From the NCBI GenBank assembly GCA_039583875.1, contig CM077150.1:183586375-183650374 (forward strand): a stretch of 64,000 nt of DNA, written 5' to 3'. A model generated the notes under the pieces. The model did not search any database and was not told the origin of the DNA. It saw nothing but the letters and a program-made list of their open reading frames with translations. A program made the translations under genes and the position numbers. This document shows positions 2,636 through 31,493 of this stretch, in pieces. The DNA comes from Platanthera guangdongensis (Eukaryota; Streptophyta; Magnoliopsida; Asparagales; Orchidaceae). The stretch's first letter is position 1, and every line of letters starts with the position of its first letter.

Positions 2636-2687
2636 GGCAAAAATTCTGATTTTTCTTAGTGTCTAGAATTTTTCTGATCTCTGAACT

Positions 2688-2945
2688 GCGCTCGACGATT
2701 TCCCCTAAGATCGTCGAACGGAGATCGACGATTTCCAGAATCGTCGAACTGAGTTCAGCGCCTCTCAGATAGTATGAACTATCTCTTCCGGTCAACGATC
2801 GTCGAACGGCGCTCGGCGATTATGTTCACTGAACGATCGTCGAACGGAGCTCGACGCTTTCCAAGATCGTCGAACGGAGATCGACGATGTTGGAGTCTCT
2901 TCAGATTCCTTTAGAAGCCTCGATCGTCGAACTGAGTTCAAAGAT
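2688..2945. promoter_or_regulatory. Element E internal TCGTCGAAC motif cluster upstream of ORF3
   Basis: Six copies of TCGTCGAAC occur at about 2711, 2741, 2799, 2837, 2867 and 2923, several followed by GGAG(A/C)TCGACGAT, giving an imperfect palindrome. The same motif fills the LTR of this element (6555-6858). The cluster ends about 25 bases before a TATA-like box. Its position between pol and ORF3 suggests an internal promoter region; function is inference. Confidence 0.75.
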
Positions 2946-2968
2946 CTTTCCAATTCTGCGTCGAACCC

Positions 2969-2979
2969 TAATATAAAAC
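2969..2979 (+). promoter_or_regulatory. TATA-like box for ORF3 of element E
   Basis: The sequence TAATATAAAAC lies about 115 bases before the ORF3 ATG at 3092 and just downstream of the TCGTCGAAC cluster. Elements A and B have TATA boxes at the equivalent place, which raises confidence. No transcript start was mapped. Confidence 0.6.
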
Positions 2980-3091
2980 TCATTTTTCGCCGTCGTTCTC
3001 TCTTGCGCTTTCGATTTCTCTGCAAGGATTTTCTTTCCCTCCAAACAGTTCTACGCTTGGTCGTTTTGTTTGTTGAATTCTTGCAGGTACA

Positions 3092-6000
3092 ATGGCTGTG
3101 TCAGTTGTAGTTCTAGCCGCCATGAAGTTCGATGCTGGATTCGACATTGATCTGGAATCGTTCAACACTACTGATCAAATATTCCAAGACATTCTGAGTT
3201 TATTCAAGGATCAGAACTTATCTGCCCTCATGACCACGAGGATAAAGCTGGCCTCAGATGAAATCAAGGAATGGGTTTACACTGCTCATAATCTGGACAA
3301 CTCTACTATAGTTGGCTCCATTGCTGGAAACCAGGTACCCTTGACACCCACAGTTTTAACAGAGATTTTTGGCTTGAGAAATGGAGAAGAAACTGCTGAG
3401 TTATCTGGAGAGGAGTTTTCTGCCATGCTTGCCAGGATGGGTCATCCAGGGGGAAACCCTAGCAAGCTCTTCAAGAGGAATCTATCTATTGAATACAGAT
3501 TCATAGCAGATGTGGTAGGAAAAGTGCTGCTGGCAAAGCACTCAGCTCATGATACTATCTCCAGACATCAGCTCTGTCTCATGGGAGCTCTGGTAGATAA
3601 GAAAAGTTTGAACTGGGGAGAGGTCTTCTTTGACCTAATCAAGAAGAAAATCAACAAAAGCTTTGTTAATTTTGGAAGGATTCTTGGAGTCTTCCTGCAG
3701 ACAAGGTGCCCTGCCTTGCTGGTCTCCTCTAGAGTTCACATTAATGCCTCCAAGAGACTTACCTGTGCCCTCTTTGGCAAGTGGGACAGGCAAATAAGCA
3801 AGCCCAGCAGTCCCTCCTCTAGTGCTCCTTCAGGCACCAGGACTCTCAGAGTCACTCTCCCACAGGTCTCTGCTCCTGCAGAAGACCTGGCTGCTGCTGT
3901 TGCTGCCTCTTCTCCTCCTCCAATTCCAACCCTACCTCTTCCATCCACCATTCCAGCTTCATCCCCCATTACCATATCCAGCCCATCTCCAACCTCAACT
4001 CCATCTCCAGACCCAATTCTACATCCACCAGCAGACCACTTCCACCCATTGTTTTCATACCCCCCACCAGATATCACATCATCACCATCCATACCATCTT
4101 TCACCCTTCTGGATGACTCCTACATGGATGATTCCCCATCCTCTCCTCCAGACTTACCCTCCTCCTCAACTTCATTCCAAGATCTCCTCCTCCACATCAT
4201 TGACCAACCAACATTCACTCCATCCATATCAATCCCCTTGTCCTCCATATCCACCATCCCCACACCTCAGCCATCCATACCTCCACTCTCCAGCCCTCCT
4301 CTTCCAGCATCCTCAGCTATCCCTATTCCATCTACCTCTGCTCCTGTGGTTGAGCAAGTAGACCTCTCAGCCCTAGCTAACAGGTTGTATGAGCTCATTG
4401 CCCCCAGGCTCTCTCTATTATTAGAGACCTCCTTATCTCCTCTACAACAGTCAGTGGCAGCTCTCTCTGCCAGGATTTCCTCCCTCCTTCATCAGGCAGC
4501 ACCTCCAGCAGTGTGCCTTGATACAGATGTATCTGCATCTAGGCAGGGGGAGATGCCATATGAAGCAAGCTTTCATGCTGTTGCTGCTGCTGTCTCTGCT
4601 CCTGCTGTTGATGATACTGCTGCTGCTGCTGATGTTTCTGTTTCTGCTACCTCTACTCTTACTGTTGTGCCTCCTACTCCAGTTCTGGCACTAGACCTAA
4701 AGTCCTTGCTCTCAGCCTTTGATACTGCATTTTTCAGTTGTTTGCCTAAGAGTAATGCTGTCCAGCCCTCAGAAGACCTGTCCAAGGCACTAGTGCCTTT
4801 CTCTGGCTGTGACCCCAGCATTATATCTTCTTTTGTACTCTCAGTAATTGCTGCTACTGCTGCTATTGAAGAAAGGACTATTTTTGCTGCTGCTGAAAAT
4901 ATTCTTACTGCTGCTGAAATCCCAACTGCCTCTGATAAGCAGATATCCAAGGATTTTCTGATGACAGAGGCCACTGATTTTGAGCCTGCTGCAGATTTTG
5001 TTGATGTTACTGAAGTTGCTGCTGCCATCACTCCTGCTGTTGCTGTTGTTGGTTCTGCTTCTCCTCCTGTATCTGCTACTGAATCTGCTACTGTATTTGC
5101 TGCTGTCTCTACTGTTGTCCCTGCTGCTGCTATTTCAGCTTCTGTCTCTTCTGCCTCTACTCAGCTGAAGAAAGACTTGATGAAAAGAATAGATACTTTA
5201 TATGATGATCAGAGCTCTGAATCTGATGAATACAAAACAGACTCTGATGATTCATCTGCCACTATTGCTAGGAAGAGGAAGTAAAGGAGCAAGGCAATGA
5301 AAAGGGTTCCTCCTACAAAAGTCAAGGATAATAATGATATTCCTTATTATATTCTGCATAACTGCCCCATCACAGAATATTGGATGCAATATTCTAAAAA
5401 TCAGCTCAAGGCCATGAAGAAGAAGAGAAAGTGTGAAAAGGGCTCATCCCAGTTCCAGCACCCTCATCCTTCTCCACCACCTCCTCCTGATGCAGGTGCA
5501 GGTGGCAGCTCTGCAAGTCAAGCCCCAGCTAGAAGCCAGGCTCCCTATCAACCCCATGCCAGATCCTACCAAAGGGAAAGCCAGTCTAGGGGTTCTTATT
5601 CCAGGAGAGGAGGATACAGGGGTAATCAAAGAGATATTCAGGTTTATTCCAAAGGGTATTCCAGGCAGCACCCATACTCCAGGGGAGGACATAGTGCTGC
5701 TGATACTACTTCAGGTCCCTTCCCCTACAAGCTCAAAGAGACAGTGTCTGCCAGGCCTCCTCAAGACAATTCTTCCAACAGGTATGAGCCACCTGTACCA
5801 TTTGAGGACCCTGAAAAGAATCCATCTGCTTGGACTGCTAGGATGAAGGAGTTGGCTGCATTAGACCAGATCAAGAAGGCCAGAGAGCAAGGTTTAGATT
5901 CTTCAAATATTTCTACAATGTCAGAGCAAAGATAGAAAGAACTAGAGAAATATGCCTCAAGAAAATTCTTTGATGCAGACAGATATATGGAATTGCATCC

Positions 6001-6392: not shown

Positions 6393-7898
6393 TGTTGGAA
6401 CACCCTATTACTATTTTGGGTCAGGATCACTATGTCTCTAGGAACCTTTGTTTGACCTCCTGTATAGCTTAATAGGTCAATTAGAATTGAGTCTAAGGGT
6501 TAGAAATCTAGGATTGGAAGCTGCCCTGAAGACCAAGTTTTTCTGTCTGGAGACCAAGTCTGATCATCGAGCTCAGCACGACGATTCGTCGAACTCCGGT
6601 CGACGATCGTCTAGCTCAACTTCGACAGATCGTCGAACTCCATTCGACGATCGCTGAGCTCAACTTCTTAATATCGTCGAACTCAGTTCGACGATCGGTG
6701 AGCTCAGTTCGACGGTTTTGACTCTGCACTGGATCTTTATCTCTGAGCTCAGTTCGACGATCTTTGAGCTCAGATCGACGATTATTTTGCTGCTTGAGTT
6801 TTCCAGTTCGCTGAGCTCAGCTCGACGATAGCAGAGCTCAGTTCGACGATTTTGGTTAACTTCCAGAATTCAAATTCAAATCAGACAGGAGTTATTATGC
6901 AATTAATTCAAATATTTGCTAGCCGTTTTCATTTATTTCTGGACCAAGTTACAAGGGATCTTTCAAGGAATAATTCTGTGGACTTTCCTCCAGAAGAGTT
7001 TATGCAATTAAGGCTGCAATCAATGCAGACCAACAGTTATCTTTGACAGAGAATGATATTCTATTCTGGAACAGAGAATAAAAGACAGAATGTTTTTGAA
7101 TCAATAGAGATTAACAAGAAGAGAATACACAACACAGATTACAGAGACTCATTCAAAATCTTCTGTCAAAAAGAATTCTGAAGAACACTCATCAAAGAGA
7201 TCAAGCTTTCAAAATCTCTTCATCTTTCAAAGTGTTCAAGGACAACATCATTTCAAGGCTCCAGACACTCAACATTTCAGCCATTGCTGAAACCATCTAC
7301 TGCTAGAGTTCTATCTTTGAAGGCCTATCACCCTCAGCAAAGCTTTTCTTCCTGAAGATTTCAAGGATTCAGGGGGAGCTTTGACATCAATCCACATAGT
7401 CTTCTCAGTTGTTTGAGAAAGAGAAGACTGCCATCACTCTCTCACCCCCAGTTTGTAAAGGGTTTCTCAAACTCCCTTCAAAAGTTTGAATCTAGTTTTT
7501 GAGCACCTTGTCAAAAGATCATTGGTGGCAAGACACCTGATCAAAAAATCTGCTTTGGTTTTTGAGCACCTTATCAAAAGCTCATTGGTGCCCAGGACAC
7601 CTGATCAACTCATCCTGCAGTGGATTCCTACCTAGGGTGGTAGAAGAGTGGATGTACCCAAGTTTGGGGAACCACTATATTTCCTTGTGTCATCTGGTTC
7701 TGCGTGTTTTCTTTTTGTTTCTGGCCTTGATTTGTCTGTGCTTAGTTTTTGCATAGCTTAGTTCTGTGATTAGATTTATATTTACTTCCCTGCTCACACT
7801 TATTACAACAATTGTTGTAAAAGTTTTTAAAAGTACTAAAACACCATATACTCTATTCACCCCCCCTCTATAGTATATCAGATCTAGTTGCACTTTCA
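6393..7898 (+). repeat. 3' LTR of element E
   Basis: It is about 1,506 bp, begins TGTTGGAACACC after the polypurine tract and ends CTGCACTTTCA-like (here GTTGCACTTTCA). It matches the D LTR at 22180-23696 along its length. A cluster of TCGA motifs fills its front part. No canonical TATA box was found in the expected place. Confidence 0.95.
6555..6858. promoter_or_regulatory. TTCGACGATC / TCGTCGAAC palindrome cluster in the E LTR
   Basis: The stretch repeats GAGCTCAGTTCGACGATC and its inverse many times. In places the two halves meet to form a palindrome (for example around 6674-6698). The region lies in the presumed U3 promoter part. It matches the cluster ahead of ORF3 in the same element. 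Confidence 0.85.
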
Positions 7899-8332: not shown

Positions 8333-8649
8333 TGTTTGGTATTGTATCCACACTAACCCAGATTTGATGAAGTCATCCTTAAGCTAAGTGAATTAAGTTG
8401 TATTTGATGCTTGGTTTGAGTTATGTGTTTGCAGGATTCTAATGGGAAGTGTAGACCAATGTCAGTCTACAATGGGTCACCAAACACAGGACCATACAAT
8501 CTAATCCCTCATTGTGTGATCTAAGGTGTTGACTCATGTGTAGCCTCTCTACTAGGATGCACTTCATATTCAAGCTCTAGGACTAAGTGGAAAAGACTTG
8601 ATGCTGGTCTCAATAAAGAAGAAGAGAATTCTGTCATGAAAATTTCCTA

Positions 8650-9425
8650 AGTATTATACTCGAGTAGTTCTATATCTACTCGAGTAAATAGCTGAGTTTA
8701 TACTCAAGTAATATTACTCTTACTCGAGTAAGGATGACTGATCCCGAGTAGTCAACTTATGGCTGTCGAGTAGTTAAGACAACTATTTGAGTAGATTCCC
8801 TCTTGCTCGGGTTTACTGAATTTTCTTCTCGAAATATTTTTTAAGTGAAATACTCAAGTAGGCCATATAGATACTCGAGTCGTTTATCTCTTTAGTCTCG
8901 AGTACCTGAATTCTGGCTCTCATGTAGTTCTTACTTACTCGAGTAGTCTAAGTCATATGCTCGAGTAGTTCACTTACTACTCGAGTAATCCAAAGTTTTT
9001 ACTCGAGTAAACCGGAACCTTCATTCCTCAAAATTTCTCTCTGTCAATTACTCGAGTAGTCATTTACATATACTCGAGTAGTTCTTATCATCTCGAGTAG
9101 TTCAACTTCAATACTCGAGTAGTCCTTTATTCCAGTTCAGAAAATTTTCTAAGTCCCTGTCTTGAGTAGTATTCCTTATACTCGAGTAATCCACTCCACC
9201 TCTTGTGTAAATACTTAAGTACTCGAGTATGTCATTATTGATTCTCGAGTAGCTGATTTCTTTCTCTTCATGTTTACTCGAGTAGTCATCTATATGTACT
9301 CGAGTAATTATCTTCTTCTCTCTCGAGTAGTTTTCTTGTATACTCGAGTCGTTGTCATATGCCCACTCGAGTAGTTCTGTAATGTACTCGAGTAATCATT
9401 TCTTTACTCGAGTATATTACTTCAA
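8650..9425. promoter_or_regulatory. TACTCGAGTA palindrome array in the A LTR
   Basis: More than 20 copies of CTCGAG, mostly as the palindrome TACTCGAGTA, are spaced irregularly by about 15-40 bases. Variants such as ACTCAAGTA and ACTTGAGTA fit loss of methylated CG sites. The array ends about 110 bases before the LTR TATA box. The matching array in the other LTR is about 48500-49270. Confidence 0.92.
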
Positions 9426-9535
9426 TTTTTCTGAAAATTTTGTTAAGTACAGATTAACGGATTTCTTAATGAGCCTTGACGTGATTGGTGCACGTGTTCC
9501 TCATTGTGAATGATTTATGACGTTTCTTTGTCGAT

Positions 9536-9546
9536 CCTATATAAAG
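9536..9546 (+). promoter_or_regulatory. LTR TATA box of element A
   Basis: CCTATATAAAG follows the CTCGAG array. The copy in the right LTR is CTATATAAAG at 49391-49400. This is the likely start signal for the genomic transcript. Confidence 0.8.
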
Positions 9547-10275
9547 TCTTGTCAAACCGACAAACCCTAAGTAAGGAGATCATTCAGAAGTTTTGCAGCG
9601 GAATATTCTTAAGCTTTCTGATTTCCTCTCTCTCTCTCCAAGGAACAAAAACTGTCGCCGCCGCTGATTCCCGTCCGGCTAGGGTTTTGATTTTAGAGGA
9701 TTCAGATCAAGAAGGTTTTACAGATCGAGATTGCCGCACAACTCTTCATCTTCTATTCGATCGATCGTGTGAAGCCAAGAAGATCCAGATCTGATTTTGC
9801 CAAGATTTTCTTCACCTTTCTGATAAAGCTGCAAAGCCTAGAAGAAGATGATCATGGCCGACATTTGCAGATCTGAATAAGAATTATTGTTTGTATTTCT
9901 ATACACATTTTATTTCATTCTTGTTGGAGAAATTTCTCCGAGTGTAGGAGCCTTTGTCTCCGAGATTGTAGGAAGTCTTATCTTCTGAGTGTAGATCCGT
10001 TTTGTGGATCGAGATTGTAGGAACGTTGTTCCGAGGTGTAGTATTGATTTTCAATCCAAGATAGTGGAGTAGCCGAGTCTAGTATATTGCTAGATTGGTG
10101 AGGGAAAGTAGATGTACCCAAGGTTGGGGAACCACTATAAATCTTTCCTCGTCTGTGATTGATTGGTAGATAGTTCTGTGCTTTGATCTATAATTTTTTA
10201 TTCCTAAAAAAGACGCACATCTCACCTATTCACCCCCCTCTAGGTGATTTAGGTAGGCAACTATAAACTTTCAAT

Positions 10276-14674: not shown

Positions 14675-14916
14675 GGAGAAGTCATAACCCATAGTCAATG
14701 ATATACACCATTTATAATAAACACACATTATGATGTATAAAAACATTACATGACAGGACAACATATAAACAAAACATGTATAATATGTCATTACAGAATG
14801 ATGCAAACACAGTGAGAATGAATCATTGTTTTGTTTAAACTACCAAAAGTTTTTCAACAATCTGTTTACATAGATTTTTATAACAACTAAAGATTACATT
14901 ATTGTAAAATCTATTT
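14675..14916 (-). other. Element B 3' untranslated region, left part
   Basis: This AT-rich stretch without coding sequence continues at 32307 once element C is removed. Confidence 0.75.
14912..14916. other. Likely target site duplication of element C, left copy
   Basis: TATTT precedes the C LTR and TAGTT follows the right LTR at 32307-32311. Four of five bases match, so one base would have changed since insertion. Confidence 0.6.
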
Positions 14917-15017
14917 TGTACAACCCCGTGTCCGGCGAGCAAGGTCTCCAGGAACCAGACATTTCGGGTTGAAGAAAGTGGGCGAGCTCAGCAATAGAGA
15001 AGCCGAGCCCGAGCTCG

Positions 15018-15110
15018 GCATTCGTCGACCGGAGATCGGCATTCGTCGACCGGAGATCAGCATTCGTCGAACGAAGATCAGGCATTCGTCGACCCCGAGC
15101 TCGGCATTCG
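15018..15110. promoter_or_regulatory. GCATTCGTCGACCGGAGATC repeat in the C LTR
   Basis: About four tandem units of 21 bp carry the core TCGTCGA(C/A)C. The core closely resembles the TCGTCGAAC-GGAGATCGACGAT unit ahead of ORF3 in the unrelated copia element E. The copy in the right LTR is about 31613-31710. Confidence 0.85.
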
Positions 15111-15416
15111 CAGAGCTAGTCCAAGAATCGTCAAGCTTAGGCCAACTAATGGCGACCAGGGGATGGGCGAGTTCACCGTCCCAGCTCGCGCTCTCGCAAC
15201 AGAGCTCAACAGCAGCAGGCGAGCAGGACCTACCGAGGTGATCAAGCCCCCCAGCTCGCCTGGATGAGTGAGGTACTTTTTACTGTTTTGCCCCCGCTGG
15301 TCTGCCCATAGCCCTTCAAAATAGTGGTGTTTGGCTATTGGCAGACCCAGCCAAGGGTTTTTTTGGTAACTTCAGGTCAGTTCATTTGATTATTTCGCAG
15401 TTCAGATTCCAAAAAC

Positions 15417-15424
15417 TATAAATA
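15417..15424 (+). promoter_or_regulatory. LTR TATA box of element C
   Basis: TATAAATA within ACTATAAATAGG; the same box is at 32030-32037 in the right LTR. It lies about 300 bases downstream of the TCGTCGAC repeat. Confidence 0.82.
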
Positions 15425-15693
15425 GGACCCAAGGGGTACCCCAGAGGGCATGCTTCTTGTGCTCTCCTGCTCTAGTTTTCAAGTGCTTTCTGAGGGTACC
15501 TTATCTTGGCCTCTGGCTAAGGAGGGGAAGCGCTCTCAGATCTTCCGGGTGTGAGGTGGGTCCTCCCCGTCGAGCCCTTGGGTCGGTCTTTCCTTGTGTT
15601 TCTTTGTTGTTTTTCTTGCAGGAGTGAAGTAGGCGCGAGACCACACCTTCCCCAAGGGTGAACTCCACAGGAGTCTGTTTTTCAGTGTCAACA

Positions 15694-16093
15694 TTTTGGT
15701 GCGGTGAGCGTGGAGCGTGGTCAGTGCAGAAAAGCTTCAGCGAGTTTGATGATGGGAGGACAGGGATCTGACAGGCTAGACTCGCCCCCCCGCCTCTCGC
15801 CACAGTGAGGATGTTTGAGGATTTCTTGAGTGAGGTTCTGAACCTCGTCAAGTTCGCACTCGGCACGTGGGCCGACTGCTCGACTCCAGCAGCCCAGATC
15901 GCGGCCGCCCCCTGCTTTGGGCGAGGACGCCCCCGGCAGGCGAGCTGGGAAGGAAGTGGCCGAGGAAGGCCGGGGGTGCGAGCTCCCCGGGCGCGAGCTC
16001 TTCCCCAGCTCGGCAGGTCGAGGCCGGTTCCACGAGCTAGGCTCGTGAGATTCTCCAGCTCGCCCAACAGGGGAAGGCAGCCCCTTCAGAGAG
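15694..16093 (+). other. Leader and possible gag N-terminus of element C
   Basis: A TTTTGGTGC-type primer region follows the LTR. Then comes GC-rich sequence with open frames in which the gag frame appears to shift before 16094. I could not assign residues with confidence. Confidence 0.5.
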
Positions 16094-17035
16094 TTGGTCT
16101 CTTCAGCTCCAGTTCCAGATGGGTTCAGGGAACCCGAGTTGTCCTACTACACCGGGAAGGGAGACCCGATCCAGCATGTTCAATGGTTTGAGGATATAGT
16201 CTCTATTCGGCAGATGTCGGACGGGTTCAAGTGCCGACTCTTCGCTATCACCCTCAAGGAGAAGGCAAGGGAGTGGTTCGATCAGCTATCGGCCAGCTCC
16301 ATCTACTACTTCGAGGACCAGCGCCGGGGGTTCATGCTGAGGTTCACTACCTCGAAGAGGAGGAAGAAGGAGTCAGAATCCCTATTCCACATCAAGTAGG
16401 GAGTGAATGAGACCCTGGGGAGCTACGTGGATCGGTTATAGGAGGAGGTTACTGAGGTCCAGGAGATGCCGGGCCATAGCTTGATGATGTCCTTTACCTT
16501 GGGCCTGCAGTAGGGGTTCTTCAGGATGGAGCTGAAGAGAGTTCCCCCCTCTCCTACAAGGAGCTGATGGAGAGGGCGGCAAGAGAAGTTGACAGGGAGG
16601 CATCAAATCCGGAGTTTGCGCGGAAGCTGGCCAGGTGGGCTATGGAGGAGGAGAAGGAGTCGAGCGGAGGAAGAGGACAGGAGGAGAGGAGAGGAGAGCC
16701 CCAACAGAGGGAGCAGAGGCAGCTCCAGGGGACGCAGCAGCCGAGGTGGGGGCGTCAGGAGCCTGACCGTCGGCTGGGCTGGAGACCTGAGTGGCAAGGG
16801 CAGGGGCCACAAAGAGGATTTCAAGGAAGGGACCGCTATCAAGGGGGGAAAGATCAATTCCACCCCCCGGGCTGGAGGCAGGCCCAGAGGCCCCGACTCC
16901 CCGATCAAGAAGAAGCTATGGCCATAGCCTTGGGGGAGAGGAGGAGAGTAGCAAGGCGGAGGAGGAGAGAAGTTAGGGTGGATTTTCCCTATTGCGACTT
17001 CCATCAGGAGGAGGGGGACGCCACGACCACGTGAC
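16094..17035 (+). pseudogene. gag: Element C gag (broken)
   Basis: The first part matches the gypsy gag core (YYTGKGDPIQHVQWFED, KCRLFAITLKEKAREWFD). In-frame TAG stops occur at 16397-16399 and again near 16438 and 16510. A frameshift near 16560 moves the rest to another frame, where a long Arg/Gln/Gly-rich basic region is followed by YCDFHQEEGD, a decayed version of the Tat zinc-finger motif YC-FH---GH---C. The product would form the particle and bind RNA. The upstream start is unclear because the N-terminus is shifted. Confidence 0.85.
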
Positions 17036-17289
17036 CGGAGTTCCTTGAAATGAGAGTGAACTGGGAGTAGCAGCAGCTGCAGGGTCACCAGGAAGTAAGG
17101 ATCGAGGAGGTCCTGCCTCGGCCAGAGGAGTACCGTTGTGAAGACCCGGTGGATGTTGGTACCCGAGGAGGGATCAGAGTGATCCACGGGGGGTGGGGGT
17201 CGAGGCTTCCTGCAAGGCGAGCCTCCAGACCATGTACCGTCGGAGCGTTGCCTCCACATCCCAAACCACACCCCAGAGGAGAGGATCAC

Positions 17290-18160
17290 CTTCTCCAGAG
17301 GCGAGCTGCCAGATCACGAGGATCCATTCTGTGATGCGCTTGTCATCAAGGCAGCCATCGAAAATTTTACCGTCTCTCGGATCCTCGTTAACAATGGGAG
17401 CTCCGTCAACGTCGTCTTCAAAAAGGCGTTTGACGCGATGAGGGTAGAGGCGAAGAGGGTGCTGGCCTCGGACGGACACTTGTTCGGGTTTTCGGGGGAG
17501 AGGAAGGAAGTGGAGGGAGGAGTCGGCCTCCATGTCACCCTGGGGGGGGGGCAGTCCAGAAACTGCAGGTTCGTCATTGTGGATGCCCCCAGTAGCTACA
17601 GTGCCATCTTCAGGAGGCCCCCTATCAGCGCCTCCCGCTGCGTCCCCTCATCATTCCACCAATTCTTAAAGTTCAACGCTGAGGGGATTCATGTCAGGGT
17701 CAGGGGGGACCCTAAGGTGGCGCGGGAATGCTATGCCACCGCCGTGAACTCCATCTCTTGGCATGAGGGAGACGAGGAGATGGGGCGAAGAATGGAGGAG
17801 GTTGAGCAGGAAGCTGGCAGGGAGGTGCTGGAGGTGGAGAGCTGCGCTGAGGAGGAGGCGGTAGGAAGAGATCAGGAGGAGATGGCCGAAGTGTTGGCCG
17901 TGGAAGAAGAGGTGGTGGAGATCCCAGTCCCGGAAAAGAGGGATGCTGAAGGATGGGGAGAGCAGTCCTGGTTGGAGGCTGCAGAGGAAGTGGTGGAGTT
18001 GGAGGTGCTCACCCGTGGAGGCAGGGTGGAGAAGGTCCGTGTCAGTGGAGGGATGACCCCGGAGGACCAAGGCAGGATGCTAGAGTGCATCCAGAAGAAC
18101 GTAGACATCTTCGTATGGAACACTGCGGAGATGTCGAGGGTTGACGTGGATGTGGCCTGA
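17290..18160 (+). pseudogene. pol: Element C protease and acidic linker (broken)
   Basis: The segment VNNGSSVNVVF sits where retroviral-type aspartic proteases have a D-(T/N)-G-S-S loop. The catalytic aspartate is asparagine here, a single G-to-A change, so the enzyme would be dead. A Glu-rich linker (about 17760-18030) leads to the reverse transcriptase start. TGA at 18158-18160 interrupts the frame and probably came from CGA. Confidence 0.82.
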
Positions 18161-18890
18161 CACCGCCTCAACCTGGACCCGGGAACACGCCCCGTCCAAC
18201 AGAAGAAGAGGTCCATTATGGACAAGCTGGCAGAGCCCATCAGAGAGGAGGTGGCAAAGCTCCTCAAGGCCGACTTCGTGTCCGAGATCCAATACCCCGG
18301 CTGGGTCTCCAATGTGGTCATGGTCAAAAAGGAAGACGACCGGTGGATGATGTGTATCGATTTTTCTTTACTTAATAAAGCTTGTCCTAAGGACTGTTAT
18401 CCTTTGCCTCGGATCGACATGCTGGTTGACTCAGCCATTGGTTTTTTTGTAATGAGTTTTCTAGATGCTTTTTCAGGTTATCATCAAATCAGGATGCACC
18501 CCCCGAACATCAAGGATGTCTCGTTCATCATGGGGGATGGATGCTACTGTTACAAAATGATGCCCTTCGGGCTGAAGAACGCAGGGGCGACCTACCAGAA
18601 GATGATGGATAGGGTCTTCAAAGAGCAAAAGGGGAGGAATCTGGAGGTGTACGTAGAAGATCTCATGATCAAGAGTCGAGATATGGACTCCCACCTCCAG
18701 GACCTCGAGGAGACCTTTGCTACCCTACGCAAGTATAAGATGCGGTTGAACCCTCTGAAGTGTGTTTTCGGGGCTAGCTGGGGAAAGTTCTTGGGGCATC
18801 TCCTCACCCCCGCGGGGGTCGAGCCAAATCCTGACAAGGTCAGGGCCATCATGGAGCTAGGATCACCACGGAACACCAAGGAGGTGCAAC
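18161..18890 (+). pseudogene. pol: Element C reverse transcriptase (interrupted by D)
   Basis: The frame is the same as the protease. Motifs are PGWVSNVVMVKK, MCIDFSLLNKACPKD, FLDAFSGYHQI, MPFGLKNAGATYQ and YVEDLMIKS. The last should be YVDD; the second catalytic aspartate is glutamate. The frame runs into element D at 18896 and gypsy sequence resumes at 23702. Confidence 0.93.
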
Positions 18891-18895
18891 AACTG
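18891..18895. other. Target site duplication of element D, left copy
   Basis: AACTG here is repeated at 23697-23701, directly after the right LTR of D. Confidence 0.95.
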
Positions 18896-19089
18896 TGTTG
18901 GAACACCCTATTACTAATTTGGGTCAGGATCACTATGTCTCTAGGAAACTAGTTTTTGACCTCCTGTATAGATCTAAAGGTCAACTAGAATTGAGTCTAA
19001 GGGTTAGAAGTCTAAGTTGGGAAGCTGCCCTCAAGACAAAGAATTTTCAGTTTGAGACTAAGTCATATCGTCGAGCTCAGCATGACGAT
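18896..19089 (+). repeat. Truncated 5' LTR of element D
   Basis: It matches the first about 194 bases of 22180-23696. The break falls at GACGA, inside the first copy of the TCGA motif cluster. Confidence 0.9.
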
Positions 19090-22010
19090 AGGTTCCTTGA
19101 CCCCAGAATCAGGATCAAAACACCATTGTTGGGTCAATTTCTGGCACACAGGTACCCTTGACCCCAGAAATTCTGACAGAGATTTTTGAGTTAAGTACTG
19201 GTGGAGATTCTGCTGACTTATCTAGAGAAGAATATGCTGACGTGCTTGCCAGAATGGGTCATTCTGAGGCTAACCCTAGCAAGCTGTTGAAAAAGAATCT
19301 GTCTGTGGAATATAGGTTCCTGGCTGATGTAGTTGGGAAAGTCCTATTGGCTAAGCACTCTACCCATGATACTATTTCCAGGTATTAGCTATGCTTAATG
19401 GGAGCCATAGTGGACAGGAAGAATCTGAACTGGGGAGAGGTCTTCTTTGACCTAATTAAGAAGAAAATTAACAAGAGTTTTGTAAATTTTGGAAGAATTG
19501 TAGGCCTGTTTCTGCAGAATAGGTGCCCTGCATTGCTAGTATCCTCTGTGATACACATAAATGCTTCCAAGAGACTGTCCTGTGCCCTATTTGGTAAATG
19601 GGACAGGCAGATCATCAAGCCCAGCAGGCCCTCTTCCAACACACCTTCAGGCACCAGGACTGTCAGAGTCACTTCCCCTCAGGTCTCTGCCCCTGCAGAT
19701 GACCTGCCTGCTACTGCCTCTCCTCCTCCTCTTCCAATTCCATCCACCATTCAAACTCCATCCACCATCATCATCTCCAGCCCATCTCCAACATCCATAC
19801 CAACACTAATCCCAACTGTCACAGAAGAACCATTCCATCCATTATACTCATACCCTCAACTAGATATAGTCACTTCATCACCCTCCATTCCCTCATTCAA
19901 CCTTATTGATGATTCCTTCATGGATGACTCACCCTCCTCTCCTCCTGAGCTACCCTCATCCTCAACCTCTTATCAAGACCTGCTGCAAGAAATCATTGAT
20001 CATCCCACCTTCACACCATCTATCTCCATCCCACTGTCCTCCATCACCACCTTACCCACACCTCAACCATCTCTTCCCCAATACACTAGCTCTCCCCTAC
20101 CATCATTAACATCTACACCTCCATCCTCTACCTCTGCTCCAGTCACTCCTGAGCAAGTAGATATTCCAACCCTTGCTGACAGGATTTATGAATTGCTAGC
20201 CCCCAGGCTATCTCTTCTCTTGGAGACCTTCTTGGCTCCATTACTCCAGTCAGTGGCAGCTCTTTCTGCTAGGCTCTCCTTCTTATTCCCTCAGGCAGCC
20301 CCTTCAGCAGTGTGCCTTGATCCAGCTCTGTCTGAATCTAGGCAGGGGGAGATGCCCTATGAATTGAGCCTGCCTGCTGTTGTTCTTGCTGTTTCAGTGA
20401 GCCTGCCTGCTACTATTCTTGCTGTTTCAGTGAGCCTGCATGCTGTGTCTGCTGGTTCTTCTTCTTTTGTTACTGCTGCTGCTGCTGTGTTTCAAGATCC
20501 AGTTCCACCTCCTGTTGTAGTCTTTTCAATAGACCTCAGGTCTTTGCTCTCAGAATTTGATTCAATGTATTTCAGTTGTCTGCCAGATAAAGCTTGTCTT
20601 CCAGAGAGAGTTACTATCCATCCCCCAGAGGATTTGTCCAATGCCCTTGTGCCCTTCTCTTATTGTGACTCGAGCATCATAACCTCCTTTGTTAACTCAG
20701 TTTATGCTGCTGCTACTCCTGCTGATAGCATTGCTGATGTCTCTGATGCTGCTACCCCTCCTGCTGCTGAAAGTTTTGATGATATTTCTGTTACTGCTAC
20801 ACATGATTCTATTTCTACTGATATCCTTATGACAAAGGCACATGATATTGAGCCCTCTGTATTTTCTGATGATATTTCTGCTGCTGATATTGCTGTTTCT
20901 GTAAGGGAAACTTCTGCTGCCCCAACTGCTGTTGATACTGCTTCAACCTCTGCTTCTGCTTCAACTTCAACTGCCACACCTTCAGTATCTGCTGCTGTTG
21001 CTACTGCTTCAACTCCTGTTACTAGTTCTGTATCTTCTTCAACACAGCTCAAGCAAGATTTGATGAAAATGATTGATGCTCTTTATGATGATCAAAGTTC
21101 TGAAAGTGATGAGTTCAAGACAGATTCTGATGATTGTTCTACTACCATTTCCAGAAAGAGAAAGGCAAGGAGCAAAGCCATGAAGAGAGTACCTCCAGCC
21201 AAGGTCAAGGACAACAATGACATACCATATTATATTCTTCATGATTGCCCCATAATTGAGCACTTGATGCAGTACTCAAAGAATCAACTTAAAACAATGA
21301 AGAAGAAAAGGAAATATGAAAAAGGCTCTTCTCAATTCCAACATCCTCATCCTCCTCCACAACCTCCTCCTGATACAGGTGCAGGTGGAAGTTCAGCTGC
21401 TCAGCCCTCTGCTAGAAGCTAATCCCCCTATCAGCCACATGCCAGATCTTATCATAGGGGAAGCTAGTCCAGGGGCTCTCAATCCAGAAGAGGAGGCTAT
21501 AGAGGCAATCAAAGAGAATTCCAGGTTTATTCTAAAGGATACTCAAGGCAACATCCCTACTCCAGGGAAGGACAAATCTCATCTGACACAACCTCTGGTC
21601 CTTTTCCCTATAAATTGAAGGAAACAGATTCATCCAGGCCTCCTCAGGACAATCCATCTAATAGATATGAGCCACCAGTGCCATTTTAAGACCCTGAGAA
21701 CAATCCAGCTGCTTGGACTGCAAGGATGAAAGAGCTTGCTGCACTAGACCAAATTAAGAAAGCTAGAGAGCAAGGCAAAGACTCATCCAACTTCACTACA
21801 ATGTCTGAACAGAGAAAGAAAGAGTTGGAAAGATATGGTTCAAGCAAATTCTTTGATTCTGATAGATACATGAAGCTGCATCCTGAAGCTGTAGTTCCCA
21901 GGCCCAAACAGCAAACCACTTTAGGTACAGCAGATGATACAAGATCAAAGAAGGAATCCCTCAACAACAATAGAGAAATCAAACTCATAAAGGGCAAGGA
22001 GAAGAAATGA
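19090..22010 (+). pseudogene. Element D ORF3 (5' truncated, broken)
   Basis: It is homologous to ORF3 of E from about codon 65 onward: EIFELS, RFLADVVGKVLLAKHS, NWGEVFFDLIKKKINKS, a Pro/Ser/Thr-rich middle, ESDEFKTDSDD, and a basic C-terminus. In-frame stops are TAG at 19386-19388 (CAG in E), TAA at 21420-21422 and TAA near 21687. The frame otherwise holds to TGA at 22008-22010. The longest open part is 19398-21422. The conserved N-terminal and C-terminal blocks against a fast-changing middle suggest the ends were under constraint in the family. Confidence 0.85.
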
Positions 22011-22165
22011 TTATGTAAGGTGACAATCACTCTGATTTCTGATTATTATCTGGGATGATATATATATCTGTGGTTCTGCAATGTCCAGCTTTTTGTTTTT
22101 ATGTATTGTTGCTTGTATGTTGTTATTTTATTTTCTTCAAACTCTGTAAATAGTAATCCTAACCC

Positions 22166-22179
22166 AAATAGGGGGAGAT
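22166..22179 (+). other. Polypurine tract of element D
   Basis: AAATAGGGGGAGAT abuts the 3' LTR. Confidence 0.92.
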
Positions 22180-23696
22180 TGTTGGAACACCCTATTACTA
22201 ATTTGGGTCAGGATCACTATGTCTCTAGGAAACCAGTTTTTGACCTCCTGTATAGATCTAAAGGTCAACTAGAATTGAGTCTAAGGGTTAGAAGTCTAAG
22301 TTTGGAAGCTGCCCTCAAGACCAAGAATTTTCAGTTTGAGACTAAGTCATATCGTCGAGCTCAGCACGACGACTCGTCGAACTCCGATCGACGATCGTCT
22401 AGCTCAACTTCGACAGATCGTCGAACTCCATTCGACGATCGCTGAGCTCAACTTCATCAAATCGTCGAACTCCATTCGACGATCTGCGAGCTCAGTTCGA
22501 CGATCTTGACTCAGTATTGGATCTCTATCTCTGAGCTCAGTTCGACGATCTTTGAGCTCAGATCGACGATATTGTGTTGAGGTATAAGTCCAAATCGCTG
22601 AGCTCAGTTCGACGATAGCAGAGCTCAGTTCGACGTTTTCTGATGACTTCAAGGATTTTTAAAGATTCAAATTCAGATCAGTTAAGGAGTTATTCTGCAA
22701 TTAATTCAGAAGATTTTCTAGCCGTTTTCATTTATTTCTGGACCAAGTTTCAAGGGATTTTCAAGGAATGTTTCTTTGGACTTTCCTCCAGAAGACATTT
22801 TGCAATTAAGGATGCAATTAATGCAGGCCAACGGCTATTCATGAAAAAGGATGTTCTTCTATTCAGTACCAGAGAAAAAAAAAGACAAGATTTTTGAATC
22901 TCTCTCAGACATCAATAATCCTTAGAACACAGACAAGAAAAAGAACAAGTACAATATATTCTCTGTCTCAAAGAATTCTCTGAAGAACACACATCCAAGG
23001 AGATCAAACTTTCTGAAATCTTCTGATCTCTCTTGCCTCAAGTGTTCAAGGCCAACATCTTTCAAGACTCCAGACACCTAACATTTCAGCTGTTGCTGAA
23101 ATCAACTTTTGCTGGAGATCAACTTTTGAAGTCCTATCACCCTACAACAAAGCTTCTTTTCCTGAACATCTCAAGGACTCTGGGGGAGCTTTGACACCAT
23201 CAAATCCACATAGTCTTCTCAGCTGCTTTGAGAAAGAGAAGACTTCCATAAATCTATCATCCCCATCTCTGTAAAGGGTTTCTCAAACTCCCTTCAAAAG
23301 TTTGTGCTTGGTTTTTGAGCACCTTGTCAAAAGCTCATTGGTGGCAAGACACCTGATCAAAAAATCTGATTTGGTTTTTGAGCACCTTATCAAAAGCTCA
23401 TTGGTGCCCAGGACACCTGCTCAACTTATCCTGCAGTGGATTCCTACCTAGGGTGGTAGAAGAGTGGATGTACCCAAGTTTAGGGGAACCACTATAGTTC
23501 CTTGTGTCTTCTGGCTTGTTTGTTTTTATTTTTGTTTCTGGCTGTGATTAGTTTGTGAATTATTTTAGTTCTGTGATCAGATTTTATAATTGGTTCCCTG
23601 TTCACTTAGATTACAACAATTGTTGTAAAAAGTTCTCAAGCACCACATACTCTATTCACCCCCCTCTAGAGTATATCAGATCTAGCTGCACTTTCA
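22180..23696 (+). repeat. 3' LTR of element D
   Basis: It is about 1,517 bp and complete, and it matches the E LTR. The TCGTCGAAC/TTCGACGATC cluster is at about 22350-22640. Confidence 0.95.
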
Positions 23697-23701
23697 AACT
23701 G

Positions 23702-24270
23702 ACAGGGAAGCTGGCAGGGCTAAGTAGGTTTCTCTCTCGGGCTGGGGAGAAATGCTCACCCTTGTTCAAAACTCTAAGGGGGGGGGGTCAAAAATTTGAA
23801 TGGACCAAGGAGTGAAAGGATACATTTCAGGCCCTCAAGATACAGCTGACCCAGGCTCCGCTGCTCCAATGGCCCAAGGAGGGGGAAGACCTATTTTTAT
23901 ATCTCGGGGTCTGGGCAGAGGCCTTAAGCTCCGTCCTAGTTCGGGAAGAGGGAAAGAAGCAGCTCCCTATTTACTATGTGAGTCGGGTCCTGAGAAAGTC
24001 CGAGCTCCGGTATCCAATTTTAGAGAAGTTGGCTTTCGCCCTGATCATCTCAGCCCGGAGGCTGCGACCTTATTTCCAGGCACACTCAATCCGAGTGGTG
24101 ACTGACCATCCCCTCTGCAACATCTTTGAGGGGATGGAGCATTCTGGAAGGCTGGCCAAATGGTCGGTAGAGTTGAGTGAGTTTGACGTTTCCTTTGTCC
24201 CTCGTGTCTCGATCAAAGCTCAAGCAATGGCCGACTTCCTGGTTGATTATGTGATTGAGGTGGCAGAGGA
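23702..24270 (+). pseudogene. pol: Element C first RNase H (broken)
   Basis: It continues the gypsy polyprotein after D: connection region (LTGKLAGLSRFLSRAGE), then SRVLRKSELRYPILEKLA, VVTDHPL and ADFLVDY, the usual gypsy RNase H landmarks. A frameshift occurs near 23815, close to a run of nine or more G residues around 23778. In Tat elements this domain is commonly degenerate. Confidence 0.85.
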
Positions 24271-24284
24271 AGAGCTCACTCGTC

Positions 24285-24691
24285 CGACCCCTTGGAAGGT
24301 AAAGGTGGATGGCGCCTCGGGGAGGCATTCCTTAGGAGTGGGGGTGATCTTGGAGAGCCCTCAAGGGACTATAATTGAGCAGACGGTGGTGGTGCACTTT
24401 CCCATCACCAACAATCAAGCCGAGTATGAAGCCGTGATAGCAGGGCTGAGCCTAGTCAGGGAGCTGGGGGTGTTGGACGTGGAAGTCCTTACCGACTCCA
24501 TGGTGGTAGCTTCCCAGATCAACGAGGAGTTTGAGGCAAGGAAGCCTACCCTGCGATTGTACTTAGCTAAAGTAAAGGGGGTCATCGGCACGTTCCAAAC
24601 TTTCTCCATCCGGCACGTACCCCGGGAGGAAAGTGAACAGGTCGATCAGCTCGCAAAACACGGTCCTCGGGTGGTGGGGTACCATAACTGA
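24285..24691 (+). CDS. pol: Element C second (additional) RNase H domain
   Basis: WKVKVDGASG, NNQAEYEAVIAGL and VLTDSMVV hold the catalytic D, E and D positions of RNase H. A second RNase H after the first is the hallmark of the Tat lineage. The domain itself is open and looks intact. It would remove RNA from RNA-DNA hybrids during copying. Confidence 0.9.
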
Positions 24692-25956
24692 CCTGTTCCG
24701 CCCTTCCATCGAAGAAGGAGAGCTCATGGATATAGATCAACGGACTTCATGCATGGACCCAGTTGTAACTTTCCTTTCCACAGGAGAGTATCCGGAGGGG
24801 GCAGATACGAAGAAGCTAAGGCATAAGTCGGCGTACTACCTCCTCCTGGACGGGCAGCTGTACAGGAAGACACTCTCGGGGATGTTGGCTCGTTGCGTGG
24901 CTGAGGAGGAGGTATAAAGAATCTTGGAGGAAGTCCACTCCGGAGAGTGTGGGAGCCACTCCAGGAGTCGGACCCTGGAATGAAGAATTGTTAGGCAGGG
25001 GTACTTCTGGCCCACCCTGGGCCATGATGCAACGGAGTTCGCAAGAAGGTGCCATAAGTGCCAGCTGTTTGCCCCCCCTCCAGCTACAGCTGGTCCAGCG
25101 ACTCAAAAGTATCACGGCCCCCTGGCCCTTCGCCATTTGTGGAATGGATTTTGTTGGGCCATTCCCCCAGGCTAGTGGGCAGAGGAGGTTCCTCCTAATA
25201 ATGATCGACTACTTCTCCAAGTGGTTGGAGGTGAAGGCGCTGACCAAGGTGACCTCCCAGGTTATCAGAAACTTCGTCTCGGGAGAGATCATCTGCCGCC
25301 ACGGGCTGCCCCAGGCCATCGTCACGGACAATGGGCCCCAGTTCGCCAGCGTTGAGTTCACCAATTTTTACGAACAGCTTGTAATCGACCTCAGGTTCGC
25401 CTCGGTCCATCACCCAAGGAGCAACGGGCAGGTGGAGGCCGCGAACAAAATCATCGTCAACCTTCTCAAGAAGAAAGTGGAGAATTTGAAGGGGAGCTGG
25501 GTGGAGCAGCTTCCCGCGGTTCTCTGGGCCCTGAGAACCACCCCCAACACAGCTACCGGAGAGACCCCCTTCAAACTCTCTCATGGGTGCGAGGCAGTGC
25601 TCCCCGTGGAATTTGAAGTCCAAACACCTCGAGTCATTACGACCAAGGAAGGTAGAGAAGAATGGCAGGCAGAGAACGAGGAGGAGCTGCAGCTCTCCCT
25701 CAACAGGGTGGAAGAACTGCGGGACCTCTCCGCCCTCCAACAAGAAGAGGTGAAGAGGAGAATGGCCAAGTACTTTGACAAGCATGTTAGAGTCAAACAG
25801 TTTGTGGAAGGGGACTTGTTACTAAAGATGGTGGATACAGTAGGGAGGTCGGCATCCGTAGGGAAGCTCAACCCCAGCTGGGAAGGACCGTTTATCGTAA
25901 AGGAGGCTTTAAAATCGGGAGGTTATCGACTCAAAATGTGGAGGGTGAGACCCTAA
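24692..25956 (+). pseudogene. pol: Element C integrase (frameshifted N-terminus)
   Basis: The N-terminal zinc-binding part is spread over frames (HSGECGSHS then CHKCQLFAPP), with frameshifts near 24917 and 24960-25110. The catalytic core is open: ICGMDFVGPFP, IVTDNGPQFAS and the glutamate in RSNGQVEAANK. The C-terminal segment SWEGPFIVKEALKSGGYRL is typical of gypsy integrases. The long open part is 24949-25956. Its position after RNase H marks the element as gypsy and not copia. Confidence 0.92.
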
Positions 25957-26087
25957 GTCTAACCTGGAGCGGTGACGACTTAAAACGCTTTTTTCCTTGA
26001 AGCTTGTAAGTTATGCCTTGATTTTTAATGAAAATTCTTTAATATATCAATATTGTCACTATGAGTTCGTATGAAGGAATGAGGTGA

Positions 26088-27190
26088 ACTTGGACCCCGA
26101 GCAGATCCCGCTGTCAGGATCTCACCTAGTTGGCAGGGCTGGAAGTCACTCGGTGTCATCCTTGGCCTCGAGCAGATCCCATTGTCAGGCTCTCACCTAG
26201 CTGGAAGGGCTGGAAGTCACTCGATGGTTTTAGTAGTGGACCCCGAGCAGATCCCGCTGTCAGGCTCTCACCTAGCTGGCAGGGTTGGAAGTCACTCGGT
26301 GTCATCCTTGGCCTCGAGAAGATCCCGCTGTCAGGCTCTCACCTATCCGGCAGGGCTGGAAGTCACTCGACGGTGTTAGTAGTGGACCCCGAGCAGATCC
26401 CGCTGTCAGGCTCTCACCTAGATGGCAGGGCTGGAAGTCACTCGTTGTCATCCTTGGCCTCTAACAGATCCCGCTATCAGGCGCTCACCTAGCTGGCAGG
26501 GCTAGAAGTCACTCGATGGTGTTTGTAGTGGTCCCCGAGCAGATCCCGCTGTCAGGCTCTCACCTAGCTGGCAGGGCTGTAAGTCACTCGGTGTCATCCT
26601 TGGCCTCGAGCAGATCCCGCTGTCAGGCTCTCACCTAGCTGGCAGGGCTGGAAGTCACTCGATGGTGTTAGTAGTGGACCCCGAGCAGATCCCGCTGTCA
26701 GGCTCTCACCTAGCTGGCAGGGCTGGAAGTCACTCGATGGTGTTAACAGTGGACCCTGAGCAGATCCCGCTGTCAGGCTCTCACCTAGCTGGCAGGGCTG
26801 GAAGTCACTCGATGGTGTTAATAGTGGACCCTGAGCAGATCCCACTGTCAGGCTTTCACCTAGCTGGCAGGGCTGGAAGTCACTCGTTGTCATCCTTGGC
26901 CTCGAGCAGATCTCGCTGTCAGGCTCTCACCTAGCTGGCAGGGTTGGAAGTCACTCGATGGTGTTAGTAGTGGACCTCGAGCTGATCCCGCTGTCAGGCT
27001 CTCACCTAGCTGGCAGGGCTGGAAGTCACTCGATGTTGTTAGTAGTGGACCCCGAGCAGATCCCGCCATCAGGCTCTCACCTAGCTGGCAGGGCTGGAAG
27101 TAACTCGGTGTCATCCTTGGCCTCGAGCAGATCCTGCTGTCAGGCTCTCACCTAGCTGACAGGGCAGGAAGTCACTCGATGGTATCGACC
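26088..27190. repeat. Tandem array of 71- and 75-bp units in the C 3' region
   Basis: About 14 full units start near 26114, 26185, 26260, 26331, 26406, 26477, 26552, 26623, 26698, 26773, 26848, 26919, 26994, 27069 and 27140. All share TCAGGCTCTCACCTAGCTGG; they differ in the tail, either GTGTCATCCTTGGCCTCGAG (71 bp) or ATGGTGTTAGTAGTGGACCC (75 bp). The first part alternates the two types strictly, and later 75-bp units are repeated alone. Open frames through it are not genes. Hypervariable 3' arrays are known in Tat elements. Confidence 0.96.
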
Positions 27191-27838
27191 TTGAATTTGC
27201 CAGGTAAAGACCAAGAAGTTTCGAATGCCAAGGAATAAGGGGGGAGAGGTTCTGCACAGGCGAGTTTGGACTCGCCAAACCCAGCTCAGCATCAGCAAAG
27301 GGGTAGCAAGTCAGGTCTCAGGACCTCGCTGAAAGAAGGCAAGCCAAGCCAGGGCACTTCACCCCGTCTATTTTACCTAGAAGATTTTCTGCGTTCAACC
27401 TGGATGGCTCGTGGGCGAGCTGAGGTGGCGTGACAAGGGCGGAGAGCAGCTCGCTCCCTAATCGTCTGAAGCTCAGCAAGCACTCAAAACATAACCTCTC
27501 GCGGGCGCGTACTAATGACTATCCTACTCGCAGTACCTGCCTATGCAAGGTCACTCAAAACATACCCTCTTCACCTCTTCTTGCTGGAGGGCGGATATAC
27601 AGAGCACAATATAAGAAAACAAAAAAAAGAGAAGTGGCACGAGTATGATCAAAAACCTTTCTTTCATTAAATAAGTATTTACAAAAGATGTTTATAGGGG
27701 CTCGCCTCGGCGAGTAAACCAAAATGAAGAATATGCGAATTCAGGCCTCGCCCCCCCCCCCCCCCCCCCCCCCCGCCGGACTGGTCCACCCCTTCACCCG
27801 TCTGGTCCGGGAAGTCCTTCCCGAACATTTCGTCCAGG
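27191..27838. other. Element C spacer between array and antisense gene
   Basis: I see no gene. It contains a run of 24 C residues at 27751-27774. Confidence 0.7.
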
Positions 27839-28228
27839 CTATCTTCCTTCTCGCTGGGGGGGCGTCGCCGGGAATAAGCTCAGCATCTGGTCCCTGGCGG
27901 AGATCTCCTCGCACCCCTGCAACAGTACCCCCGTGTCCTTCATCATTTGGAGGGTGCATTCGGCGGACTGGATAGAGTTAATTCGCAGCCTCTCGGCGAG
28001 ATTGGCCTCGCCAAAGATCCGCGGACTCTTGTAGGGGAGGGAAGGATCGGAGCCAATGGTCGGGAAGAAGATCTCTGCCTGGCGGCGGACTTCGCGGTTG
28101 AGGTGTTGATTCTCCTCTTTCAACTTCGTGTTCGCCCCCTCCAGCTCGACAAGGCTGGTGTGTAGCTGGCTAATCTCCTCCCCTTGCTCAGCATTACGAT
28201 CCTGAAGCTCTCCTGCGACCTTAGCATC

Positions 28229-28314
28229 CTGGTAAATAGAAAGTCCGGTTAGCAGCAACACAAAATGTTCTAAATATAAGTGAAGAGGAGAGCTTGACAT
28301 TTACCATCCCGCCG
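28229..28314 (-). other. Predicted intron in antisense gene 1 (86 bases)
   Basis: On the minus strand it opens ATG|GTAAATGTC and closes CTATTTACCAG|GATGC, with T-rich sequence before the AG. Removing it joins the upstream helical region to the coiled-coil region. Confidence 0.7.
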
Positions 28315-29125: not shown

Positions 29126-29223
29126 CTGCAAGAAAATACTTGGAAAAAGTTAGAAGAAATTCAGCAGCAATATGGCGAGCTCGGTAATCAGGTGAGCTCG
29201 GCAAAATGAGGAGAGAACAATAC
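29126..29223 (-). other. Predicted intron in antisense gene 1 (98 bases)
   Basis: On the minus strand it opens GCGAAG|GTATTG and closes TTTTCTTGCAG|GGGAG. The flanking segments are coding-like, while the intron is T-rich. Confidence 0.75.
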
Positions 29224-31332: not shown

Positions 31333-31385
31333 TTGGCAGGGTTAGGGCAAAGGGAATGGTAAGAGTCAGGTAGGTGAGCAGGTGC

Positions 31386-31453: not shown

Positions 31454-31493
31454 ACTTGTGGTTGGATGGTTCTTTCCGAGCTTTGCCAAGCTC

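Follow-up and report, generated by a model that had tools for sequence, protein, structure and literature searches.

Long terminal repeat (LTR) retrotransposons make up a large part of many plant genomes. Here, we describe a 64,000-nucleotide stretch of the orchid Platanthera guangdongensis genome (contig CM077150.1, positions 183,586,375 to 183,650,374 of the forward strand; hereafter, the window), in which three copia elements, E, A, and B, have a third open reading frame (ORF3) downstream of pol. The closest described elements are the Sireviruses, whose LTRs contain family-specific palindromic boxes 5′ of a conserved TATA, with more boxes 5′ of the envelope-like gene ENV if ENV is present (PMC2829016). 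All nine boxed elements with ENV were reported to have boxes 5′ of it, 77 of the 79 copies in linkers precede ENV, and, in the available part of that paper, none of four boxed elements without ENV has linker boxes (PMC2829016). Bousios et al. 2010 favour an internal promoter, citing Peterson-Burch and Voytas 2002, and describe that promoter as not conclusively identified (PMC2829016, available part). What the third gene does was described in 2010 as unproven and controversial (PMC2829016), and in 2020 such extra genes were said to have an unclear role (PMC7264820). One extra gene of this kind, in the maize element Grande, lies between pol and the 3′ LTR, and has its own promoter and a nuclear product (PMC7264820). 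Among DNA transposons, VANC proteins are encoded by VANDAL elements; VANC is far more variable than the neighbouring transposase (Hosaka et al., PMC5735166), and VANDAL21 motif arrays occur in introns too (PMC5735166).

Motif arrays and CpG in the LTRs and spacers

In each of the three elements, the spacer between pol and ORF3 contains an array of a short motif, and the motif is that of the element's own LTR. The order pol, motif cluster, TATA box, and ORF3 ATG, proposed in the first-pass annotation for E, A, and, on the minus strand, B, was located in the window as follows.

2640-3091, plus strand: E pol-ORF3 spacer
2680-2960, plus strand: E motif cluster in the spacer, TCGTCGA / TCGACGA core
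2971-2978, plus strand: E TATA box ATATAAAA, TATAWA at 2972, -120 from the ORF3 ATG
3073-3087, plus strand: E 3′ splice-acceptor-like site with end TTGCAG G, just 5′ of the ORF3 ATG (3092)
3092-5284, plus strand: E ORF3, ending at an in-frame stop; the frame resumes at 5285-5935
6394-7898, plus strand: E 3′ LTR, motif cluster 6585-6850, TATA-like AATAAAAGA near 7078
8333-10273, plus strand: A 5′ LTR, CTCGAG cluster 8658-9412, TATA at about 9538
45151-45615, plus strand: A pol-ORF3 spacer
45225-45362, plus strand: CTCGAG cluster in the A spacer, with a single extra copy at 45521
45472-45480, plus strand: A TATA box TATATAAAT, TATAWA at 45472/45474, -144/-142 from the ATG
45616-47046, plus strand: A ORF3, frame broken by an in-frame stop near 45880
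48187-50126, plus strand: A 3′ LTR, CTCGAG cluster 48532-49267, TATA at about 49392
42638-40800, minus strand: B 5′ LTR, GTGTCGACAC cluster 42498-41968, TATA at about 41810
35360-34912, minus strand: B pol-ORF3 spacer
34950-35313, minus strand: GTGTCGACAC cluster in the B spacer, plus GTGTCAAC-like decayed copies
35015-35023, minus strand: B TATA box TATAAATAG, -112 from the ORF3 ATG (34911)
34129-34911, minus strand: N-terminal part of B ORF3, in-frame stop near 34881, homologous to E ORF3
14662-12870, minus strand: B 3′ LTR, motif cluster 14521-14011

By exact count, all 37 copies of ACTCGAGT in the window lie in the LTRs (18 and 14) or the spacer (5) of A, and all 39 copies of TGTCGACA in the LTRs (18 and 14) or the spacer (7) of B. 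The 63 exact E-type 8-mers are found in the E spacer (16), the E LTR (16), the LTR of F, a relative of E at 18896-23696 (17), and elsewhere (14, of which 11 are in a repeat pair at 55-64 kb, one in a gypsy LTR, one in a truncated 5′ LTR piece of F, and one at 51115). A second set of 8-mers, those present at least three times in each LTR, was chosen de novo, independently of the motifs annotated earlier. The spacers of E, A, and B contain 42, 30, and 41 occurrences of the words from their own LTRs, respectively, compared with means of 1.6, 1.0, and 3.4 and maxima of 10, 7, and 15 in shuffled spacers (1000 shuffles each); other internal windows of equal length contain at most 3, 7, and 4, and the spacers of the other two families 0-5. 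The two counts thus bear out the claim that each spacer motif equals that of its own LTR. The motifs of A and B are perfect palindromes, the motif of E forms inverted-repeat pairs, and the cores of all three are TCGA. A small correction to the first-pass annotation is that A and B have extra motif copies 3′ of the spacer TATA.

Beyond the window, we sampled copies of E, relatives of E, two copies of B, and ten copies of a fourth family. For the E spacer, 40 of 2604 first-look candidates were scored, which gives a minimum of 40 copies at 98-100% identity. Among 30 near-identical E copies, five (L003, L004, L008, L011, and L012) were dropped because the ORF3 N-terminus was unanchored, and TATAWA is kept in 24 of the remaining 25. 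With the P. zijinensis ORF3 relative P0004 as a query, 30 loci were obtained; L031-L033, which match another part of P0004 and have no ORF3 anchor, were excluded, and the other 27 have an ORF3 73-80% identical to that of E. A whole-genome search for the order cluster, TATA, and ORF3 had been suggested as a check, and all 27 relatives show it: the 520 bp 5′ of ORF3 contain 4-15 exact E 8-mers, and TATAWA lies at -115 to -125. In a 28-row alignment, ATATAAA is one of three invariant 7-8-base runs in the spacer; ORF3 of one relative (L057) starts with GTG. Three further E-type LTRs (L066-L068) were also fetched, and L067 is without any exact E 8-mer; it is a 3′ LTR probably from the same copy as L047, whose spacer retains nine E 8-mers. 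Both further B copies have the array, with 10 and 20 GTCGACAC within the 0.75 kb fetched, and their TATAAATAG is unchanged. The sister-species entry P0003 is annotated through the spacer, where the motif appears as a repeated RRTE peptide, with NPNIK where E has AACCCTAATATAAAA; another, P0012, shows the B leader.

The ten copies of the fourth family are 61-81% identical in ORF3 to P0005, which is 50% identical to E. A shifted motif, TCGACGAAC, is present in ten of ten spacers and two of two LTRs of this family, and in none of five E-type pieces; two of the four LTR stretches fetched (L081 and L083) were left out, having no recognisable LTR start. All ten copies have a loose TATA-like pattern at -81 to -94. 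At the ORF3 start, an acceptor-like site reads TGCAGG in eight copies and TACAGG in one, and is broken in one; the start itself is ATT in one copy (L070).

The coding DNA of E is nearly free of CpG, with 2 in 2639 bases of pol and 0 in 2539 bases of ORF3 beyond its first 300. The spacer cluster has a CpG observed/expected ratio of 1.93 (0.93 once the motif is masked), the leader one of 1.45, and the initial 300 bp of ORF3 one of 0.37, forming a CpG island that spans the motif cluster, the TATA, and then the beginning of ORF3. In the E LTR, leaving out its first 146 bp, the ratio is 1.62 in the cluster (0.73 masked) and 0.04-0.11 after it. The contrast of pol with spacer and leader is repeated in ten other copies. 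Values for the first 300 bp of ORF3 versus the rest are 0.86 versus 0.03 in A and 0.56 versus 0.01 in B; the gag-pol region of A also retains CpG (0.32-0.58), and the B spacer drops from 0.67 to 0.31 when its motif is masked. The GTGTCAAC words of B look like decayed motifs. That a CpG-rich spacer is a mere by-product of the motif was rejected for E, where the ratio stays near 1 after masking; the B value of 0.31 is compatible with it. The pattern suggests that the arrays and, at least in E, the surrounding DNA were spared methylation in the lineage or came under selection.

The window as a whole consists of nested retrotransposons. A encloses B, B encloses a Ty3/gypsy-like element (14913-32307), and the latter encloses F; E begins beyond the left edge of the window, and its 3′ LTR closes it on the right. 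Similarity between the ORF3 of E and that of F extends past the in-frame stop of E at 5284. In F, 193 bp of 5′ LTR adjoin an internal part of ORF3, with AACTG repeats flanking, and F is an internally deleted copy without gag, pol, and spacer. Compared with the pol of A and B, that of E (2370-2640) is cut short in the RNase H region; because 27 relatives (L034-L060) conserve this stretch, the early end looks like a group property not particular to the copy in the window. The gypsy-like element contains a tandem array (26089-27183; repeat offsets of about 73 and 146 bp). Two direct repeats of 2.7 kb (55693-58435 and 61237-64000), 92% identical, lie around A/T-rich DNA without ORFs of 200 or more amino acids and may be the LTRs of a non-autonomous element. 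Short E-like arrays (TTCGTCGAC-type and GATCGTCGAGC-type) are present in unrelated repeats at 14913-15694 (the gypsy LTR), 58130-58180, and 63690-63820; these repeats might exploit the same binding factor, as AT9TSD1 reportedly does with VANC6 in Arabidopsis, or might indicate a host factor.

The ORF3 product and its possible role

The N-terminal domain of E ORF3 is PF20167-like and is predicted to adopt the VANC21 fold. The predicted model has the fold of the DNA-bound VANC21 structure, with 9% sequence identity over the fold alignment. Purifying selection acts on ORF3 (median ratio of nonsynonymous to synonymous divergence, dN/dS, 0.07 in 176 of 190 pairs; the other 14, with dS below 0.05 or saturated, were left out). 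Synonymous divergence is higher in ORF3 than in pol in 55 of 55 pairs, which are not independent (11 copies, L034-L059; medians 1.38 versus 0.18), and suggests either exchange of an ORF3 module or homogenisation of pol. Identity of E to ten relatives is mostly 85-95% in pol and 78-91% in the spacer, and drops to 68-75% over the initial 150 bp of ORF3. Given this drop and the higher divergence, ORF3 behaves like a module that either evolves fast or is exchanged, downstream of a control region that is conserved. Homolog searches with ORF3, in one of which the best 7997 candidates by common words were scored, returned Platanthera proteins only. A Foldseek search of E ORF3 against viral proteins gave a best E-value of 0.097 and a probability of at most 0.21 in the best 50 of 207 matches, and a search of viral contigs gave one pattern match and no relative.

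The reading that we favour, to which we give a little short of even confidence, is that ORF3 of these Sirevirus-like copia elements is a VANC-type, family-specific DNA-binding anti-silencing factor, and that the own-motif arrays are its sites. The ORF3 product would bind the CpG-bearing motif arrays of its own family, which lie in non-coding control DNA at two places, the LTR and the spacer that precedes ORF3, and such binding would keep both places unmethylated and active. ORF3 would thereby support its own expression, through the cluster, TATA, and ATG, as well as expression from the LTR, and motif and protein would change together when a family splits. The arrays and their agreement with the element's LTR, the TATA boxes, the conservation of both, the CpG pattern, and the homology between E and B ORF3 were observed, and the VANC21 fold of E ORF3 is a prediction; we infer binding of the motif, blocking of silencing, joint change of protein and motif, and transcript starts at the spacer TATA. 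It is a tentative proposal, not quite an even bet, that the Sirevirus-type envelope-like gene is a VANC-like motif-specific anti-silencing factor with the boxes as its sites, which would amount to a self-sustaining circuit in a retrotransposon. An analogy, and only that, is provided by foamy virus, an animal retrovirus in which the internal promoter has the same activator as the LTR and the gene product Tas, unrelated to ORF3, activates both.

Several observations weigh against the anti-silencing reading. The PF20167 matches fall under the cut-off of that family, and a single ORF3 model was confident, that of the B domain having a mean predicted local distance difference test score (pLDDT) of 46 and not being used. 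No Pfam DUF1985 or DUF287 match was found at E-values up to 10 with five ORF3 pieces, nor was there one among the 12 members of A1. ORF3 profiles searched against sequences of solved structures returned no VANC21 and only unrelated matches (E-values of 6.2, and of 0.74 and 1.1). A comparison of the ORF3 profile with a DUF1985/PMD-like orchid protein at first gave P values of 0.09 and 0.02; in mixed-alignment hhalign the values were 0.003 (B-anchored) and 0.03 (E-anchored, with one of 12 unrelated chunks scoring higher). That orchid protein itself reaches VANC21 at an E-value of 0.58 only, below an unrelated aminotransferase at 0.48. Sequence support for a link between ORF3 and VANC is thus weak, and a common fold does not establish DNA binding. 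ENV-less Sireviruses still have LTR boxes (PMC2829016). In the fourth family, the E-type word is also present in nine of ten spacers and outnumbers the family's own motif in three, so tracking of the LTR by the spacer motif is partial there, and nine of ten copies have no TATAWA up to 200 bp from the start. The motif cluster is lost in one of the three further E-type LTRs (L067), and E-type motifs are found in unrelated repeats too. Finally, the CpG pattern points to low past methylation or selection, not to its cause, and most of it in B comes from the motif itself.

Promoter, splicing, and other accounts of the spacer

TATAWA lies 112-144 bp 5′ of the ORF3 ATG in E, A, and B, and the chance of finding it at -150 to -80 is 0.006, 0.063, and 0.014, respectively (2000 dinucleotide shuffles each). 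The LTRs of A and B have TATATAAA 131 and 165 bp 3′ of the motif cluster, and the E LTR, without TATAWA, has only the TATA-like AATAAAAGA, 235 bp after its cluster. A coding leader was rejected, since TATA-to-start distances differ by steps that are not multiples of 3 (from 115 to 125 among relatives of E; 108, 109, and 112 among copies of B). All 28 E-type rows have TGCAG 3-8 nt 5′ of the ORF3 start, though the length of the preceding T-run varies. The acceptor-like TTTTTCAGG is next to the ORF3 start in A, and no clear splice acceptor was seen near the ORF3 start in B. Judged by these elements, the ORF3 transcript could arise by splicing of an LTR transcript, by an internal start, or by both. 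The promoter of its own that the first-pass annotation gave to ORF3 is therefore plausible, and has gained support from the cluster and TATA in 27 diverged E relatives and from the E CpG island, but a splice acceptor or a binding site fits as well.

Splicing of an LTR-started transcript to the acceptor at the ORF3 start, as predicted for some gypsy envelope-like genes, is a possibility that we hold to be appreciable and short of probable, and it is compatible with an anti-silencing role of ORF3. The spacer array would then, with the same limited probability, be an intronic factor-binding site or a CpG island and not a promoter. The constancy of TGCAG in E-type rows, the TGCAGG of eight fourth-family copies, and the site in A speak for splicing, and the annotated sister-species entries P0002 and P0012 join pol pieces to ORF3, which would imply predicted introns; the join in P0012 precedes the leader and is not at the acceptor. 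VANDAL21 motif arrays are also partly intronic (PMC5735166), and for that reason a spliced ORF3 does not count against the VANC-type reading. No donor was identified, however, B is without a clear acceptor, and splicing predicts neither the TATA nor the leader CpG island.

Alternatively, the spacer may be an internal promoter read by a host factor common to the LTR, ORF3 having another, e.g., envelope-like, role without motif binding. The cluster-TATA order is alike in spacer and LTR of A and B, the TATA is conserved in 27 of 27 E relatives, and the E CpG island extends over the leader into ORF3; stress-factor site matches were noted by Bousios et al. 2010, as were LTR boxes in ENV-less elements (PMC2829016). 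This account leaves the family-specific motifs and the predicted VANC21 fold unexplained, and we consider it unlikely.

A passive origin, by recombination that copied LTR sequence into the spacer and drift that kept it, is highly improbable: the B spacer-LTR match of about 105 bp at 75% and the 193-bp LTR piece adjoining the internal ORF3 part in F would fit it, but the window holds no other spacer-LTR match of at least 80 bp at an E-value of 1e-8, and arrays are retained by all 27 E relatives (ORF3 dS of about 1.5-2.6 versus E in 16 scorable pairs), both further B copies, and all ten fourth-family copies. A spacer that is a plain LTR copy was rejected, the single match being partial and in B only.

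Comparison with known systems

Copia pol was recognised by Pfam RVT_2 in E (E-value 2e-83) and A (4e-70), the two elements covered by the scan, and B pol is 67-69% identical in DNA to the pol of A and of E. As in Sireviruses, a repeated palindromic motif is present in the LTR and 5′ of an ENV-like ORF3. The junction of polypurine tract and 3′ LTR is GGGGGAGATTGTTGG at the 3′ LTR start of E and A and GGGGGAGATT at that of B, and a ATTCACCCCCC-type stretch, corresponding to the poly-C integrase signal, lies near the LTR end of all three; both were judged by eye and not scored against the consensus of PMC2829016. Sirevirus boxes likewise form a high-copy LTR motif 5′ of TATA and also 5′ of ENV, with CpG islands in both places, but their core is CGG-CCG in 12 of 13 (the exception being Tnd-1; PMC2829016). 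The cores of E, A, and B are TCGA instead, and we therefore call these elements Sirevirus-like. No function is given for the ENV protein or the boxes in the available part of that paper (PMC2829016); the orchid spacers have a TATA at -112 to -144. The architecture is thus already known, and E, A, and B are new members of it with TCGA in place of CGG-CCG cores. The earlier suggestion that a separate promoter tracking the LTR would be a different expression strategy is anticipated by Bousios et al. 2010 (PMC2829016, available part); the tracking itself is clean in E, A, and B and partial in the fourth family. The extra gene of Grande differs in being antisense and in a Ty3/gypsy element, with no common LTR motif in the available description (PMC7264820).

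Among the open-access papers listed, none was seen to connect the ENV-like genes of Sireviruses to VANC proteins; a meeting report refers to VANC-DNA structures that are unpublished (PMC12859917, available part). VANC of the VANDAL Mutator-like transposons (VANC21; PDB 9lnj and 9lnk; PMC5735166) resembles ORF3 in being an element-encoded protein with the fold predicted for ORF3. Family-specific arrays of short motifs in the element's own non-coding DNA are common to both systems, partly mixed in the fourth family, and low CG methylation at the arrays, described for VANDALs (PMC5735166), is in the orchid only suggested by CpG retention. The variability of VANC relative to transposase (PMC5735166) is paralleled by a fast ORF3 beside a conserved pol. 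VANDALs are DNA transposons, whereas ORF3 sits between a copia pol and a 3′ LTR. If the anti-silencing reading of ORF3 is true, the roles of the boxes and of the 'envelope' would have one answer, and sequence-specific anti-silencing would not be confined to VANDAL DNA transposons but would extend to LTR retrotransposons.

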